A stretch of DNA of 64,000 nt, from NCBI GenBank assembly GCA_018402295.1, contig JAGYJI010000007.1, positions 1 to 64,000 on the forward strand. The letters are read 5' to 3'. The DNA comes from Pontimonas sp. (GTDB lineage Bacteria > Actinomycetota > Actinomycetes > Actinomycetales > Microbacteriaceae). How positions within the stretch are numbered: position 1 is the first letter of the stretch; each line of letters opens with the position of its first letter. Position numbers and translations under genes: made by a program. Shown here in pieces: positions 50,053-58,353 of this stretch. Below the pieces are notes generated by a model, which saw only the letters and a program-made list of their open reading frames with translations, did not search any database and had not been told where the DNA came from.

Positions 50053-53000
50053 GTGCATCTGAAATCCCTCACCCTTAAGGGATTTAAGTCCTTCGCCCAA
50101 CCCACCACCTTTGAGTTTGAACCCGGTGTCACCTGTGTGGTGGGACCGAATGGTTCCGGAAAATCCAACGTGGTCGATGCCCTCGCCTGGGTGATGGGTG
50201 AGCAGGGCGCCAAAACTCTGCGCGGTGGGTCGATGGAGGATGTCATCTTCGCGGGAACCGCAAACAAAGCCCCCCTGGGCCGCGCCGAAGTCATCCTCAC
50301 CATCGATAACTCCGATGGGGCACTGCCCATCGACTACACCGAAGTCACCATTTCTCGGACCCTGTTTCGTAACGGCGGCAGCGAATACGCCATCAACAAG
50401 GAACCCTGTCGACTGCTCGATGTTCAGGAGCTCCTCAGCGACAGCGGTCTGGGCCGGGAAATGCACGTCATTGTTGGGCAGGGGCAACTCGACCAGATTT
50501 TGCATGCCAGCCCCGAAGATCGTCGGCGCTTCATTGAAGAGGCTGCCGGAATCCTGAAGCACCGCCGTCGCAAAGAAAAGACGGTCCGCAAACTCGACTC
50601 CATGCAGGCTAACCTCACCCGGTTGAACGACCTGGCCGGAGAAATCCGACGCCAACTCACCCCGCTGGGACGTCAGGCGGAAGTGGCGAAGCAAGCCCAG
50701 ACCATTCAAGCCATCGTGCGAGACGCCAAAGCTCGCGTGTTGGCCGATGACCTGGTGTTGCTGACCCAGGCTCTGGAATCGTTTCACCAGAGTGAGCAGG
50801 AGCGGAGCACTGAGCGCGCCACCCTCCAGGAACAACTCGATGGCTATCGCCGTCGGATATCCCAACTGGAGTCCGGCATCAACGATGTTGAGCTCGACAC
50901 CGCGCGCGAGTATTGACTTCTCGCTCCGGCGAGTCCACGAGCGGCTCGCAGGCTCTGCACTCACTGGCCTCCGAGCGCTCCGGCGCTGTGGACGAGGGGG
51001 ACTCCGGCGAGGTCCTCTCCTCCGGTGTGACCCCGGAGATGATTGCTGCCAAAGAATCTGAGCGGGACCAGGCGATCACCGAGATGGCCACACAGGAAAG
51101 TGCTGTGGGTGAGGTCTCCGCTCGCCTCGCCACTGCCCGCGCCTCGCTGGCCGCCCTCGACCAGGAAGTTCTCTCCGCCACCCAGGCTGTGGAGGAGTGG
51201 GACCGAGGTCTACGCGCCGCACAATCGCTGGTGGAGGTTGCGAGCTCGCGGGTCGACACCGCCGCGGCAGATGTTGAGCGGCAAAAAACTGCGCTCCGAA
51301 ACGCCACAGACCGCGCCCGCGATGCTGAAGAGGCACTCCGGACAGTGCAGGAATCTTCAGGTCAGGCACCCGATGCGGTGGCCGACGCCTTGGAGAAAGC
51401 CCTCCAGGAAGCCGAAGAGGTCCTTGCCGCAGCGGAAGCGACAGAAACAGACACACGAAACGCCCTCCACGCCACCGAGCGCGAGCGAGAGGCGCTCGCC
51501 GCCACGGTGGCCGCACTGGAGTTGGCTCTGCGCACCGACTCTGAGGGTGGTGATCAGGCGACCCTTCCCGGTGTGACCGGCAGTGTTTCCGATGCGCTGC
51601 GTGTCGAGAAGGGCTACGAGACAGCCATTGCGAGGGCCCTAGGCTCGCTGGCTGATGCCCACCTGGTGGGCACCAAGAAGGAGGCCCTCTCCGTTGTCTC
51701 CTCGAGAGTGGGCAGTGAGGGCCGAATCGAACTGGTCATTGCCGATGGCTCATCCCACACCCCGGCAGATATTCCTGGGCTGACCACAGCACTCAGTGTC
51801 GTCACCGGTCCCGCCGGTGTTCTGGCACTTCTGGCAGACACCTATGTTGCTGAAAACTTTGCCGCAGTGGAAAAAGCCTGGCCCAGTGTTCCCCGCGGTG
51901 TGACCGTGGTCACCCGAGACGGCGATGTGTTTGGTGATCATGTGGTGCGCACCGGGTCTGGTGAAGCACAAAGCCGCTTGGAGTTGGCAGCACAGCGCGA
52001 TGCCACCAAGACCACGCTTGAATCGGTGTCGACCGAGCGCGAGCGACTGAGTTTTGACGCTGAGCAGGCTCAGGCCAAACGCATCGCTGCGGCCGAAGCT
52101 GTGAAAAACGCTCTGGCGCAGTTGCGCCAAGCAGATGCGTCACGGGCAGAGTTTGGTGAGCAGGTGTCCCGGGTTCGAGCCTCCCTGGATGCCGCGCAGC
52201 AGGAAATCACACGTCTGGGAGAAGCGCTCGCGGAGTCTGAGGCAGCTCTCGCCAACGCCACCGCACAGCACCAGGAGAGCATTGCGCAGTGGGAAGCCTT
52301 CCAGAAGACAACCAGGCCGGGAGTCGATGAGTCCCAGCGCCATGACGCGCGCGCCCAGGTGGATGTCATCGCCTCTGAAGAGGTGGAGGCCCGCATCGCC
52401 TTAGAAGCCTCCCGTCAGCGCGCGGGGGCACTCGGTGACCAGGTGGAAGCTCTGGTGGCGAGAGTTCGAGACGAGGAGCGCGCACAGGAACGTGAAAAAG
52501 CTCGGCACCGTGAGCGTGTCCGGAAGGCCCAGCGCGCGTCACAGGTCTTGGCTCTCTTGCCCGCCGCTCTGGCCAGTGCTGCCGCCAGTGTGGAGGAGTC
52601 GGGGACTGCCCTGGTCGCTGCAGAGGCAGCCAGGCAGGCTTCCCACCAGGAGTTGCTGGCACTTCGCCAGAGCGAAACCTCGGTGCGCGAGCGCTTGACC
52701 ACCATCACGGACTCGGTGCACTCCCTGGAGATGCAGGTGTATGAGAAAAAACTCCAGCGCACCACACTTCTGGAGCGAGCCCGGGAGGAGCTCGGTCTGG
52801 AGGAGGATGCCCTCCTCCAGGAGTACTCTCCCGAGCAGATGGTCCCTCCCGATGGCACCGAGGAGGGTAGCGAGGCGACGCCGTTTGTGCGAAGCGAACA
52901 GGAAACAAGGCTCAGAAAAGCTGAGCGAACCCTGGACCAGCTGGGTCGAGTGAACCCACTCGCGTTGGAAGAGTTTGAGGCTTTGGAGACCCGGCACACC

Positions 53001-53554
53001 TACTTGACTGAACAGCTGGCGGATCTCAAGACAACCCGATCTGACCTGGAAGCCATCATGGCGGAGCTCGACGAGACGATGCACACAATTTTTGCGGACG
53101 CTTTTGCTGACACCCAGAAAGCTTTCGATGAGGTGTTCCCCCTGTTGTTCCCCGGCGGCACCGGATCGCTGAAGCTCACCGAGCCTGCGGATATGTTGGC
53201 CACCGGCATCGATGTTGCGGTAAAGCCTGCGGGAAGAAAATCGAGCGCTTGTCCCTGCTCTCCGGCGGTGAGCGGTCGTTGGCCGCGGTGGCGCTCCTGA
53301 TCGCCATTTTCAAGGCGCGACCCAGCCCCTTCTACATCCTTGATGAGGTCGAAGCGGCGTTGGATGACTCCAACCTGGGTCGCCTCCTCTCCGTCATCCA
53401 CTCACTCCGCGATGACTCTCAGCTGATCATCATCACCCACCAAAAGCGCACCATGGAGATTGCCGATGCGCTCTATGGGGTGTCGATGCGCAAAGACGGT
53501 GTGAGCGCTGTGGTGGGTCAACGAGTGAAGGAATCGGAGGTACCCGCCGCGTAG
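50053..53554 (+). CDS. smc: Chromosome segregation protein SMC (three frameshifts)
   Basis: The condensin ATPase has about 1166 residues. The N-terminal head opens [20 protein letters not shown] and carries [20 protein letters not shown] (Walker A). Two long Ala/Glu-rich coiled-coil arms flank a hinge (about 51540-51960, [20 protein letters not shown] onward). The C-terminal head has the signature [15 protein letters not shown] and Walker [20 protein letters not shown]. Shifts lie near 50910 and 50958 ([13 protein letters not shown] joining [14 protein letters not shown]) and near 53236 (missing G). Start GTG 50053. A partner ScpA/B pair is not in the window. Confidence 0.96.
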
Positions 53555-53576
53555 GAGCGGCGAGTACCCTGTGCCT

Positions 53577-53738
53577 ATGAGAATCAACCAGCGCATCGGA
53601 TGGGCACTCATTGCCTGTGCTGGTGCGCTGAGTGCGGGGATTGTCTCCCTTGAGATCTACTCTCTGGCCAGCCAGCAGAGCCCTGAGTCCTCAGAAACCC
53701 TGCCCGCACTTGAGTTTGAGCCCGCAGGCGAGGACTAA
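53577..53738 (+). CDS. Small single-pass membrane protein, 53 residues
   Basis: The frame runs from ATG 53577 to TAA 53736-53738 in the gap between smc and ftsY. The N-terminus is MRINQRIGWALIACAGALSA, followed by GIVSLEIYSLASQQS, which together form one hydrophobic segment (about residues 8-27). An acidic tail, SSETLPALEFEPAGED, follows. TACCCT (53565-53570) lies 6 nt before the ATG, the same leaderless layout as many genes here. Positive N-terminus and acidic tail predict a cytoplasmic N-terminus. I recognise no family. It ends 3 nt before ftsY, so it is likely co-transcribed with the SRP receptor. Confidence 0.6.
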   Translation: MRINQRIGWALIACAGALSAGIVSLEIYSLASQQSPESSETLPALEFEPAGED

Positions 53739-53741
53739 GTC

Positions 53742-54623
53742 ATGGCGTGGGGGAGCGGCAAGTGGTCGCTCGGTAAAGCGCTCCGAAATCTGGTGTCTCA
53801 GCCAGAAATAACCGAGCAGACCTGGGACGACCTCGAGGACACTCTCCTGTCGGCAGATTTTGGTCCCGAGGTGACCGATGCCCTGATGGCCTCTGTTCGA
53901 GCCGAGGTGGACCGGATTGGAACCACCAAGCCCGATGATGTTCAGGCCATCCTGAAGGATTCACTGGAAGCGCAGTTGGCTGAGTATGACCCGACACTTC
54001 GCCTCACCGAGCGACCCGCCGTGGTCATGGTGGTGGGGGTTAATGGTGTGGGGAAAACCACCACCATTGGAAAGTTTGCCAAGTTCCTCACCAACGCTGG
54101 TCGAAGCGTCGTGATTGCGGCTGCGGACACGTTCCGTGCGGCAGCGGTCGAGCAGTTGACCACCTGGGCTGATCGCGCGGGTGTTCCCCTGGTGGGCCCC
54201 ACCACGGACGGCCAAGACCCCGCCTCCGTCGCCTTTCAGGCGGTGACAAAGGCGAAAGAGGAAGGTATCGACATTGTCATTATCGATACCGCTGGCCGCC
54301 TCCACACCAAATCAGGGCTCATGGATGAGCTCAACAAAATCCGTCGCGTGGTGGAGAAAGTGGCTCCCGTGTCTGAGGTGCTGCTGGTCTTGGATGCCAC
54401 CACCGGTCAAAACGGTGTGGTCCAGGCGCAAGCTTTCTTGGAGCACGCCGGGGTGACCGGTTTGGTGCTGACCAAAGTAGATGGCAGCGCCAAAGGCGGC
54501 TTTGTTCTGAGCGTTCAGGAGAAAACCGGGCTCCCCATCAAACTGCTCGGCCAGGGTGAAGGAATGGGGGATATGACAGGTTTCTCTCCGGCCTCCTTCG
54601 CCACATCGCTGGTGGAGGACTAA
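53742..54623 (+). CDS. ftsY: Signal recognition particle receptor FtsY
   Basis: The 293-residue SRP GTPase consists only of the NG domains, without the long acidic A domain of the E. coli protein. The N domain opens WSLGKALRNLVSQPEI. G motifs are VVGVNGVGKTTTIGKFAKFL near residues 96-112, AADTFRAAAVEQL, VIIDTAGRLHTKSGLMDELN and VLTKVDGSAKGGFVLS. It receives Ffh-ribosome complexes at the membrane. The gene lies between smc and ffh, with a convergent gamma-CA gene inserted. Confidence 0.97.
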   Translation: MAWGSGKWSLGKALRNLVSQPEITEQTWDDLEDTLLSADFGPEVTDALMASVRAEVDRIGTTKPDDVQAILKDSLEAQLAEYDPTLRLTERPAVVMVVGVNGVGKTTTIGKFAKFLTNAGRSVVIAAADTFRAAAVEQLTTWADRAGVPLVGPTTDGQDPASVAFQAVTKAKEEGIDIVIIDTAGRLHTKSGLMDELNKIRRVVEKVAPVSEVLLVLDATTGQNGVVQAQAFLEHAGVTGLVLTKVDGSAKGGFVLSVQEKTGLPIKLLGQGEGMGDMTGFSPASFATSLVED

Positions 54624-55129
54624 GCGCTCCGGTAGGTGCGGCCCAGCTCCTGGTAGGTCAGGGCATTGTGCCGGATGGCCTGTTTCTCCTCCTCGGTGAG
54701 TTCACGCCGAACTTTCCCGGGCACACCCGCCACCAAGGAGCCCGGCGGAATGATGGTGCCCTCCAAAATCACTGACCCGGCCGCGACGAGTGAGCCCCGC
54801 CCGATCACAGAGCCGTTGAGCACAGTGGCATTGATGCCAATCAAGCAGTCATCCTCGATGGTGGCGCCGTGCACGATGGCGGCGTGCCCGATGCTCACCC
54901 CCGCCCCGATGTGAGCGGGAAAACCGGGGTCACCGTGGACCACCGCGTTATCTTGCAGATTGCTGCCCTCGCCCAGGTGGATGGCATCTCGATCAGCCCT
55001 CAGCACCGCACCAAACATCACCACACTGTTCTCCCCGAGTGTGACCTGCCCCACCAGGGTGGCGTTGGCGGCAACAAACGAGGTGGCGGGAACCAGGGGC
55101 TCATGGGAACCAAAGGGGATCAGGGGCAT
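54620..55129 (-). CDS. Gamma carbonic anhydrase family protein (left-handed beta-helix)
   Basis: The 169-residue hexapeptide-repeat protein reads FVAANATLVGQVTLGENSVV, MFGAVLRADRDAIHLGEGSN, LQDNAVVHGDPGFP and IGHAAIVHGATIEDDCLIG. The three His that bind metal in gamma-CA/YrdA proteins are visible in these motifs. A C-terminal helix (LTEEEKQAIRHNALTYQELG) follows. Enzyme activity in this subgroup is often undetected. Start ATG 55129 matches the family N-terminus; the longer upstream frame is antisense to ffh. It is tail-to-tail with ftsY and divergent from ffh. Confidence 0.92.
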   Translation of the reverse strand: MPLIPFGSHEPLVPATSFVAANATLVGQVTLGENSVVMFGAVLRADRDAIHLGEGSNLQDNAVVHGDPGFPAHIGAGVSIGHAAIVHGATIEDDCLIGINATVLNGSVIGRGSLVAAGSVILEGTIIPPGSLVAGVPGKVRRELTEEEKQAIRHNALTYQELGRTYRSA

Positions 55130-55164
55130 GCCTCCAGGATAGGAGTCACGACAGTATTGTCGGC

Positions 55165-55178
55165 TAATCTTGGGGACC
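55165..55178 (+). promoter_or_regulatory. Candidate leaderless promoter of ffh
   Basis: TAATCT at 55165-55170 is followed by 8 nt and then the ATG at 55179. No Shine-Dalgarno sequence is present in the gap. Confidence 0.5.
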
Positions 55179-56672
55179 ATGGCTGCTTTTGGTTCACTCT
55201 CCGAGCGGTTAACAGCCACGTTCTCGTCCCTGCGGCAAAAAGGGAAACTCTCTCCCGCCGACGTCGATGGAACCGTGCGCGACATTCGTCGCGCACTCCT
55301 CGAATCCGATGTTGCCCTGGATGTGGTCAAGGATTTCACCGCGAAGGTGCGCGAGCGAGCACTATCGGATGATGTCAACACCGCGCTCAACCCTGCCCAG
55401 CAGGTGGTCACCATCGTGAACGAGGAACTGGTCAACATTCTCGGTGGCGAGACGAGGGGGCTCTCGTTCGCGAAAACCGGCCCCACCGTGATCATGTTGG
55501 CGGGTCTGCAGGGTTCGGGTAAGACGACACTGGCGGGCAAGCTCTCCAAATGGCTGGTCGACCAGGGACACACCCCCGTGCTCGTAGCCTGCGACCTCCA
55601 GCGCCCTGGAGCTGTCAAGCAATTGGGCATCGCTGCGGAGAATGCGGGGGCCGCGTTCTTTGCCCCCGAACCCGGTGATGGCGTGGGGGACCCGGTCACG
55701 GTCGCGAAAGCCGGCGTCAAATACGCGGTCGATAAAGCCCACGACGTCGTCATCATCGACACTGCGGGTCGTTTGGGTGTCGATACAGAGCTGATGGCTC
55801 AGGCGTCGAGTATTCGTAAGGTTACGAACCCCGACGAAGTCCTCTTCGTCATCGACTCGATGAGCGGTCAGGACGCAGTCGTGACCGCGAAAGCATTCCA
55901 GGAGGGTGTGGACTTCACCGGAGTGGTGCTCACCAAGCTCGATGGTGACGCCAAGGGTGGTGCTGCACTGAGTGTGACCGGAATCACGGGCCGCCCCATT
56001 CTGTTTGCCTCCACGGGCGAAAAAATTGACGAGTTTGAGGTCTTCCACCCCGATCGGATGGCGTCTCGCATCCTCGATTTGGGTGACATTCTCACCCTGA
56101 TTGAGCAGGCCCAGAAAGCTTTTGATGAGGAGGAAGCCCAAGAGCTGGAAGAGAAATTCCGCTCCGAGACTTTCACCCTGGAAGATTTCCTTTCCCAGCT
56201 TCAGCAACTGAAAAAAATGGGTTCCCTGGGCGGAATGCTCAGCATGTTGCCCGGCGCCAGGGGAATGCAGGACCAGATCGACAACATCGACGAGGGCGAA
56301 TTGGTGCGCACCGAGGCGATCATTCAGTCGATGACTCCCAAGGAGCGGCTCACCCCGAAACTCTTGAATGGTTCGAGGCGGATGAGAATTGCGAAAGGCT
56401 CCGGCACCACGGTGACCGAGGTAAACCAGCTGGTCACGCGCTTTGATCAGGCCGCAAAAATGATGAAGACAGTGGCCAAGGGTGGTGTTCCCCAGATTCC
56501 CGGGCTTGGCCCCATTGCCGCGGGAACTGGCCGAGGAAAGAAGAAAGCCACCAAAAAGAAGGCTTCCTCGCGCTCCGGAAACCCGGCCAAGCGTGCCCAG
56601 GAAGCACTGGGAAAGAGTGTCTCCGGCGGGTCCGGATCGAGCTTTGGCCTGCCCAGTTCCCCGGGTGAATAG
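55179..56672 (+). CDS. ffh: Signal recognition particle protein
   Basis: The 497-residue GTPase binds signal peptides with 4.5S RNA. The N domain opens FGSLSERLTATFSSLRQKGK. G motifs are MLAGLQGSGKTTLAGKLSKW, VACDLQRPGAVKQL, VVIIDTAGRLGVDTELM and VLTKLDGDAKGGAALSVTGI. The Met-rich M domain runs from about residue 330 (MGSLGGMLSMLPGARGMQDQ), with the RNA-binding SRRMRIAKGSG. A basic C-terminal tail (GKKKATKKKASSRSG) follows. The frame is intact. Confidence 0.97.
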   Translation: MAAFGSLSERLTATFSSLRQKGKLSPADVDGTVRDIRRALLESDVALDVVKDFTAKVRERALSDDVNTALNPAQQVVTIVNEELVNILGGETRGLSFAKTGPTVIMLAGLQGSGKTTLAGKLSKWLVDQGHTPVLVACDLQRPGAVKQLGIAAENAGAAFFAPEPGDGVGDPVTVAKAGVKYAVDKAHDVVIIDTAGRLGVDTELMAQASSIRKVTNPDEVLFVIDSMSGQDAVVTAKAFQEGVDFTGVVLTKLDGDAKGGAALSVTGITGRPILFASTGEKIDEFEVFHPDRMASRILDLGDILTLIEQAQKAFDEEEAQELEEKFRSETFTLEDFLSQLQQLKKMGSLGGMLSMLPGARGMQDQIDNIDEGELVRTEAIIQSMTPKERLTPKLLNGSRRMRIAKGSGTTVTEVNQLVTRFDQAAKMMKTVAKGGVPQIPGLGPIAAGTGRGKKKATKKKASSRSGNPAKRAQEALGKSVSGGSGSSFGLPSSPGE

Positions 56673-56840
56673 GCTCTAGACCCGATGTGGTCTTCCCCCG
56701 GGCAAAAAATCTGACAGAATAAGCACTCGAGCACTTCGCCCGACCCTCTATCTGGCGCTTGAGCTCCCCCTTAGACGTCCTGTCGATTGTGTCCCCACGT
56801 AATCGTCGGCTGTTATGACTACTCATCTACTTGGAGAAAC
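56673..56840 (+). promoter_or_regulatory. ffh-rpsP intergenic region
   Basis: This 168-nt gap holds the presumed promoter of the rpsP-khpA-rimM-trmD operon. No unambiguous -35/-10 pair, strong hairpin or known ribosomal-protein leader stands out. GGAG at 56833-56836 is the ribosome site of rpsP, 4 nt from GTG 56841. Confidence 0.3.
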
Positions 56841-57539
56841 GTGGCTGTAAAAATTCGTTTGAAGCGCATGGGAAAAATTCGTGCGCCGTACTACCGCATC
56901 GTTGTCGCTGACTCACGCACCAAGCGTGATGGTCGCGTCATTGAAGAAATTGGCAAGTATCACCCGACCGAGGACCCCTCGGTCATCGAGGTTAACTCTG
57001 AGCGCGCTCAGTACTGGCTCGGCGTGGGCGCTCAGCCCACCGAGCAGGTCACTGCACTGCTCAAGCTGACCGGCGACTGGGGCCAGTTCAAAGGCGAGAA
57101 GGGCGCAAAGAGCACCGTCAAGTTTGCTGAGCCCAAGCCCGCGTTCCAGGCTGACACCAAAAAGAAGCCCGTTCTTCGTCCCAAGGTTGTCAAGCCCGTC
57201 GAGGAAGCCCCCACAGCTGAGGCACCCGCCGACGCGCCTGCTGACGCTCCAGTAGCTGAGGCTGCTCCCGCTGAAGCTCCCGCTGAAGCTCCCGCCGCAG
57301 ACGTAGCTGCCGAGGCACCCGCAGACGCTGCTCCGGCAGAAGCTGCAGCTCCTGCCGAGGAAGCTCCTGCTGCTGAAGAAGCTCCTGCTGCTGAGGAAGC
57401 TCCTGCAGCTGAAGAAGCTCCTGCTGCGGAGGAAGCTCCTGCAGCTGAAGAGGCTCCTGCTGAAGAGGCTCCTGCTGAAGAGGCTCCTGCTGCTGAGGAA
57501 GCTCCTGCTGAGGAAGCTCCCGCTGAGGAGACTAAGTAG
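56841..57539 (+). CDS. rpsP: 30S ribosomal protein S16 with long Ala/Glu/Pro tail
   Basis: Residues 1-95 are a standard S16: [40 protein letters not shown] and [20 protein letters not shown]. The protein is 232 residues against roughly 80-150 in most bacteria. From about residue 118 it becomes a low-complexity tail of AP, AE and EEAP units, with ten EEAP repeats near the end, strongly acidic and without a fold signature. Start GTG 56841 is fixed by the family start AVKIRL and a GGAG site. It heads the operon with khpA (2 nt gap), rimM and trmD. The tail may come from slippage-prone repeats, but the frame is open throughout. Confidence 0.93.
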
Positions 57540-57541
57540 CA

Positions 57542-57778
57542 ATGTTGGATCGCGCGCTGAATCACCTTGTCCGGGAAATCGTTGATAACCCGGACGAGGT
57601 CAGCGTGAGCGTTGTGGATACACCCCGTGGTGATCTCATTGAGGTTCGGGTTCACCCAGAGGATTTGGGTCGCGTCATTGGCCGTCAAGGTCGCACGGCC
57701 AAGGCGCTGCGCACCATCATCAATGCGTTGGCCGGTGGCCGTAAGGTCCGGGTCGACGTCGTCGACACAGACTCCTAA
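57542..57778 (+). CDS. khpA: KH domain RNA-binding protein KhpA (YlqC)
   Basis: The 78-residue KH-domain protein opens LDRALNHLVREIVDNPDEVS. It has the KH signature LGRVIGRQGRTAKALRTIIN with the GxxG loop GRQG. KhpA works with KhpB in cell-size and RNA regulation in Gram-positive bacteria (family knowledge). Its position between rpsP and rimM is conserved. The stop overlaps the rimM ATG (TAATG). Confidence 0.93.
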   Translation: MLDRALNHLVREIVDNPDEVSVSVVDTPRGDLIEVRVHPEDLGRVIGRQGRTAKALRTIINALAGGRKVRVDVVDTDS

Positions 57779-58353
57779 TGTCTGAGACCTCCAAGCCCTC
57801 GGCACCCAAGCCGGAGCGGGTGGAGCTGAGGGTTGCCCGGTTGGTGAAGGCCCACGGTCTCAAAGGAGGGCTCAAGCTCGAGGTCTACACCGATGACCCG
57901 GAGCTTCGTTTTGCTCCGGGGAACCAGTTCACTCTGCAGGTTCCCGACGATTCGCCCTGGTTTGGCAAGAAAATTACCCTCTCCAGTATCCGTGAGGTGA
58001 ACGCATCACCGGTGGCGTTCTTTGATGGCGTGGAGGACCGTGATGCCGCGGAATCCCTGGTGAAAGCAATTTTGTGGGTCGAGCACGATCCCTCCACCAG
58101 GCCCACCGAAAGTGACGCCTGGTTCGATCACGAGCTGGTGGGTTTGCGAGTCGTCCGCGAAGGAACCACCGTGGGAAGTGTTGCCCGAGTGGAGCACTTT
58201 CCCGCCCAAGACCTCCTCGTGGTCACGACCGAGGATTCTGAAGTGTTGTTGCCGTTTGTGAAGGCCTTTGTGCCCTCGGTCAACATCGAGGCCGGTGTGG
58301 TGGAGATCACCCCACCGGGAGGTCTCTTCGAGAGCATTCCGGACGAGTCATGA
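57778..58353 (+). CDS. rimM: Ribosome maturation factor RimM
   Basis: The 191-residue protein has the N-terminal RimM fold [20 protein letters not shown] and the PRC-barrel C-terminal domain [20 protein letters not shown], with [20 protein letters not shown] near the end. It assists maturation of the 30S head around S19. It overlaps both neighbours (khpA and trmD) by a few nucleotides, so translation is coupled. Confidence 0.96.

Follow-up and report, generated by a model that had tools for sequence, protein, structure and literature searches.

A conserved, probably leaderless gene for a predicted single-helix membrane microprotein between smc and ftsY in Pontimonas

CydX, AcrZ and KdpF are single-helix accessory microproteins, and the eukaryotic SRP-receptor subunit SR-beta is a GTPase with a cytoplasmic domain. 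In actinobacteria, small open reading frames (ORFs) can lead operons as leaderless genes; according to passages of PMC4633059, leaderless small ORFs in front of annotated genes are common in mycobacteria, and in one coupled example the linkage is kept while the peptide sequence is not. As stated in excerpts of PMC6022935, the N-terminus of FtsY is hydrophobic in Streptomyces as in other actinobacteria, and NG-only FtsY receptors are described in part of PMC2572998 as working without an A domain.

The protein encoded between smc and ftsY in Pontimonas shares with CydX, AcrZ and KdpF its small size, a single predicted transmembrane helix and the lack of an enzymatic domain, and it differs from them in having a conserved outer tail; at the sequence level the comparison consists of family scans, which gave no match. 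Like the operon-leading ORFs in the excerpted text of PMC4633059, its gene is leaderless as judged from sequence, probably forms the first cistron, stops near the next start and, in part of the Pontimonas species, contains the ribosome site of the next gene; in contrast to those ORFs, it encodes a membrane protein whose amino-acid sequence is under strong selection. With the N-terminal hydrophobic or A segment of actinobacterial FtsY it has in common its location at the ftsY locus and the succession of one hydrophobic segment and an acidic stretch, but it is a separate gene with the opposite predicted topology, and the profile similarity is unconvincing.

The window, i.e. the whole stretch of 64,000 nucleotides that was analyzed, comes from a draft genome of 893,649 bases in 8 contigs that is ~60% complete. 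The first-pass annotation of this DNA had pointed to a 53-residue membrane-protein frame between smc and ftsY with a leaderless -10 hexamer 6 nt upstream, one hydrophobic segment, an acidic tail and an end 3 nt before ftsY, and this description holds in each respect. The ATG..TAA frame at 53577-53738, which starts downstream of the smc end at 53554, yields the product MRINQRIGWALIACAGALSAGIVSLEIYSLASQQSPESSETLPALEFEPAGED; the hexamer TACCCT is in place at 53565-53570, making a leaderless start probable, the most hydrophobic 19-residue stretch (residues 7-25) has a mean Kyte-Doolittle value of 1.94, the net charge from residue 31 onwards is -6 in the window copy, and 3 nt separate the stop codon from the ftsY ATG at 53742 (Table 1).

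Two observations concern the neighboring genes. The smc reading frame breaks near 50910-50950 and near 53230, and at the second break the window has one base fewer than two relatives; considering that the smc of a relative is one open frame of 1183 codons from stop to stop, the breaks are probably assembly or sequencing errors. Downstream, a frame at 57100-57539 reads by eye like ribosomal protein bS16 with a long Ala/Glu/Pro repeat tail, and this stretch gives a sub-threshold Rfam match to isrG on both strands.

Table 1. Coordinates of the features at the smc-ftsY junction, as positions in the window
Feature	Position	Strand	Evidence or remark
smc, in three frames in this assembly	50053..53554	+	smc of an intact relative matches as three pieces in three frames
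-10 hexamer TACCCT (TAnnnT)	53565..53570	+	predicted leaderless promoter; ends 6 nt before the ATG
Small-protein gene	53577..53738, stop codon included	+	53 residues, one predicted helix; 19/19 genus genomes, dN/dS, alignment, AlphaFold2 helix 3-33
Predicted transmembrane segment, ~residues 7-30	53595..53666	+	hydropathy in 18/18; AlphaFold2 helix; invariant G8, W9, L11, S19
Acidic tail, probably extracytoplasmic, with the partly conserved SETLP..xF.P motif	53667..53735	+	net charge, alignment
GAGG, likely ribosome site of ftsY	53730..53733	+	lies within the final small-gene codons; 8 nt upstream of the ftsY ATG
ftsY, SRP receptor, NG only without A domain	53742..54623	+	PF00448 (3.8e-72); PF02881 (2.6e-14) from residue 10

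The small gene was recovered in 19/19 genomes of the genus by a profile search, the profile having been built from 18 of those same sequences; the copy in G005 is truncated at the end of its contig. When 99 genomes were searched with a single sequence, strong matches (E < 1e-8) were confined to the genus, the best outside match being at 0.0096, and the one genus member noted as missed by this search, G002, carries the gene at the expected place (L047). The order smc, small gene, ftsY is found in 18/18 loci in which the junction is intact, and the length is 52 or 53 codons in all 18 complete loci. Among 97 within-length pairs, the 16 unsaturated ones (pS under 0.70 and pS+pN under 0.9) gave dN/dS values of 0.006-0.23. 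Random placement of the same substitutions never produced as few amino-acid changes in 5000 trials for six of the seven pairs tested; for L094/L125 (the same genes as L010/L013) 223 of 5000 placements did so, a weak selection signal when taken alone. Selection on the small protein is strongly purifying, the frame is kept in related genomes rather than broken by stops or shifts, and 53577-53738 is a genuine protein-coding gene, far beyond chance. A chance open frame, or a conserved RNA in place of a protein, would be in keeping with the small size alone; it is extremely improbable, being refuted by the codon pattern, in which substitutions favor the third position (24 of 26 in L127/L128), and Rfam, scanned over 52500-57800, yielded nothing in the small gene up to E = 0.1.

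The product had been called unrecognised in the initial reading of the sequence, and it matched no known family. Across the 18 members, the best values in the family scan were E = 0.039 in Pfam, 0.11 in NCBIfam and 0.068 in PHROGs, each for one member, and PDB sequences gave none up to E = 1. Several identities were considered and rejected: a lipoprotein, as there is no conserved lipobox cysteine (besides the window copy, just two of 17 relatives have Cys14); a protein with a cleaved signal peptide, as the alignment, inspected by eye, lacks a conserved small residue at the cleavage site; and a phage-derived gene, as no relative was confirmed in viral contigs (27 stretches matched a pattern) and nothing in PHROGs matched below E = 0.068. 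SecG was detected in 9 of the 11 Pontimonas genomes tried (it was not found in G000 and G009, which are 60% and 84% complete) and YajC in 11/11, indicating that the small protein replaces neither.

The best 19-residue mean hydropathy is between 1.76 and 2.32 in all 18 orthologues, against a background of 303 window frames of 40-80 codons, four of which reach 1.8. AlphaFold2 predicts a helix spanning residues 3-33, with a mean pLDDT of 80.4 that rises to 92-98 over the first 30 residues and is ~60 in the tail, so that one predicted helix and a length under ~60 residues place the protein among single-helix microproteins in size and topology. The first seven residues carry a charge of +1 to +3 in 17/18 sequences and 0 in one, and the tail carries a net charge of -3 to -7 in 18/18. 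Given the basic N-terminus and the acidic C-terminus, the positive-inside rule implies that the protein is probably N-in/C-out, with the acidic tail outside. Of the four matches at the order level outside the genus, two form the N-terminal anchors of proteins whose motifs read like those of HtrA-type proteases, and these fit the same orientation. The protein would thus be a bitopic microprotein that exposes some six residues, mostly polar and basic, to the cytoplasm, crosses the membrane once as a helix and ends in an acidic outer tail of ~23 residues. In the alignment of 18 sequences Q5, G8, W9, L11, S19, P43 and P49 are invariant and E40 is nearly so, and the tail motif has the form SETLP in 12/18. 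Conservation on one face of the helix and in the outer motif suggests that the protein binds another one in the membrane; by analogy with CydX, KdpF and AcrZ, the face formed by G8, W9, L11 and S19 and the outer SETLP..xF.P motif may pack against a larger membrane protein.

In 18/18 orthologues, the start of the small gene is preceded by a TAnnnT box whose end lies 6 nt away in 15 loci and 7 nt away in three; these orthologues are related sequences rather than 18 independent cases, and the background rate of TAnnnT in the window is 0.0017 per position. As this spacing would predict, the small gene is probably leaderless: its transcript would come from a leaderless promoter, and ribosomes would begin at the 5' end of the mRNA. 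In the other genera of the family, compared at one genome per genus, ftsY itself has TAnnnT 6-7 nt before its start in 34/41 (loci L031-L072) and looks leaderless across the family. Within Pontimonas, ftsY has its own box in 9/18 loci, four of them with a spacing of 5 nt that overlaps the stop codon of the small gene. The remaining nine are boxless: seven carry GAGG at 7-10 nt upstream of the ftsY start codon, placed in L047 after the small-gene stop, and two (L012, L019) have neither element. In the clade of the window (L001-L004), GAGG lies in the last codons of the small gene, the genes are 3 nt apart and ftsY is boxless, which suggests that FtsY is probably made from the transcript of the small gene, with ftsY as the second cistron in the species of the window and GAGG as its putative site of translation initiation.

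This arrangement could also mean that the small gene is a leaderless upstream cistron acting mainly in cis, through translational coupling to ftsY, with a peptide of little importance. The small-gene stop 3-29 nt before the ftsY start, the GAGG elements in 7/18 loci and the frequency of leaderless small ORFs before mycobacterial genes, as given in the passages cited above, speak for such coupling. However, the distance from stop to start is variable, and the amino acids are conserved far past the needs of coupling, as in L016 and L017, which differ by 26 bases, with ~25 synonymous differences, and encode identical proteins. The protein is also conserved where ftsY has its own box (dN/dS 0.063 for L011/L013 and 0.23 for L010/L013), indicating that the small gene is not merely a leader. 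We regard a predominantly cis-acting role as unlikely.

No similar gene was found directly upstream of ftsY in the 41 other genera of the family. In 19 of these 41 loci smc lies within 1.1 kb upstream of ftsY; 15 of the 19 have a gap shorter than 150 nt, and no small membrane frame occurs in these. In the other 22 smc was not detected nearby, and for these the test covers the DNA directly upstream of ftsY. A hydropathy filter over the 41 loci passed two frames (in G025 and G023), neither of which resembles the small protein. Profile searches outside the genus gave matches in 22/299 family genomes at E <= 0.05, the best at 1.9e-4, and in 4/297 genomes at the order level at E <= 0.001; wider homologues were rejected, the six outside loci inspected being parts of longer frames. 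In genus g78 (L098, L197), a frame of 142-150 codons begins with an N-terminal helix that resembles the one of the small protein at E ~7e-4 to 1e-3, possibly by chance. The small gene is limited to Pontimonas among the genomes searched. G028 and G031, which the FtsY tree places at 28% support outside Pontimonas and the remaining genera, are also without it, and G033, a long branch inside Pontimonas at 20% support, was treated as misplaced; the tree includes 14 of the 19 Pontimonas genomes and its deep support is weak. The simplest account would be a single gain at the root of Pontimonas. Among the papers searched, none came up for smc together with ftsY, and in a word search the text of the Pontimonas salivibrio genome paper contained neither ftsY nor smc.

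Alternatively, the product may be a real membrane microprotein with a role unrelated to FtsY or protein targeting, whose gene would have originated in the short gap between smc and ftsY and adopted an existing leaderless promoter. In support of this, the promoter form of the small gene is that of ftsY in most of the family, joint expression may not hold everywhere given the separate ftsY boxes in half of the Pontimonas loci, and the conserved residues lie mostly in the helix and outer tail and not in the cytoplasmic part that FtsY could reach. The neighborhood kept in 18/18 complete loci stands against it, though gene order is expected to be shared within one genus. An unrelated role is a real possibility, if a somewhat doubtful one, and the position next to ftsY may tell no more than the gene's place of origin.

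The first-pass annotation had further noted that FtsY here lacks its A domain, which is correct: ftsY was found in 99/99 genomes searched, and the window copy encodes 293 aa that begin at the N domain, with the SRP54_N match from residue 10. Its suggestion that a small acidic membrane partner would be meaningful here, taken as a split-off or substitute A domain that makes up for the missing one and anchors FtsY in the membrane, fared less well. The small gene adjoins ftsY and is probably co-expressed with it in the species of the window, and 17/17 genomes from the order's other families have, upstream of FtsY and in frame with it, at least 100 open codons, giving N-terminal extensions with a hydrophobic stretch as judged by eye; in this family such a segment has generally been lost. 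However, in 38 of the 41 other genera FtsY begins at the N domain, and neither an A domain nor the small gene is present (starts were taken as the nearest start codon, and in a few of the 41 the open frame extends farther upstream); of the remaining three, G028 and G031 carry an N-terminal extension, and G033 is ambiguous. Compared with the FtsY N-terminal segment of the 17 genomes, the small-protein profile aligned over 7 columns with an hhalign probability of 2.9% and a score of 16.3, just above the 7.4-16.0 obtained with 20 column-shuffled profiles. The predicted topology is reversed, so that FtsY could not reach a tail lying outside the cytoplasm, and short NG-only receptors function without an A domain, as already cited in part. 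On the grounds of distribution, near-chance similarity and topology, a split-off A domain was rejected, and an anchoring partner of this type is very improbable.

In L070 (G028) and L072 (G031), which represent two genera with small genomes, the FtsY extension is ~75 residues long and rich in acidic residues, with no clear transmembrane segment by eye.

A related reading sees the protein as a genus-specific membrane companion of the SRP receptor that would dock the A-less FtsY or its cargo at the translocon, as a counterpart of SR-beta in role and not by descent. In this role it would, like SR-beta, be a distinct membrane protein to which the receptor is anchored, but it has only about six cytoplasmic residues, and we consider this role quite improbable.

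Our tentative preference, held with a little less than even confidence, is a real leaderless-gene membrane microprotein that serves as an accessory subunit of a larger membrane protein. As it is probably made together with FtsY, the insertion machinery for membrane proteins or the translocon would be its likeliest setting, rather than FtsY itself. P. salivibrio is in culture as a type strain, according to an excerpt of PMC6106888, which makes the function and origin of the small gene testable. With this gene, the small membrane proteins gain a well-supported orphan family. It also looks like a new first cistron that took over the leaderless promoter of ftsY, a core gene, at the base of a single genus, and related genera that lack it are available for comparison.
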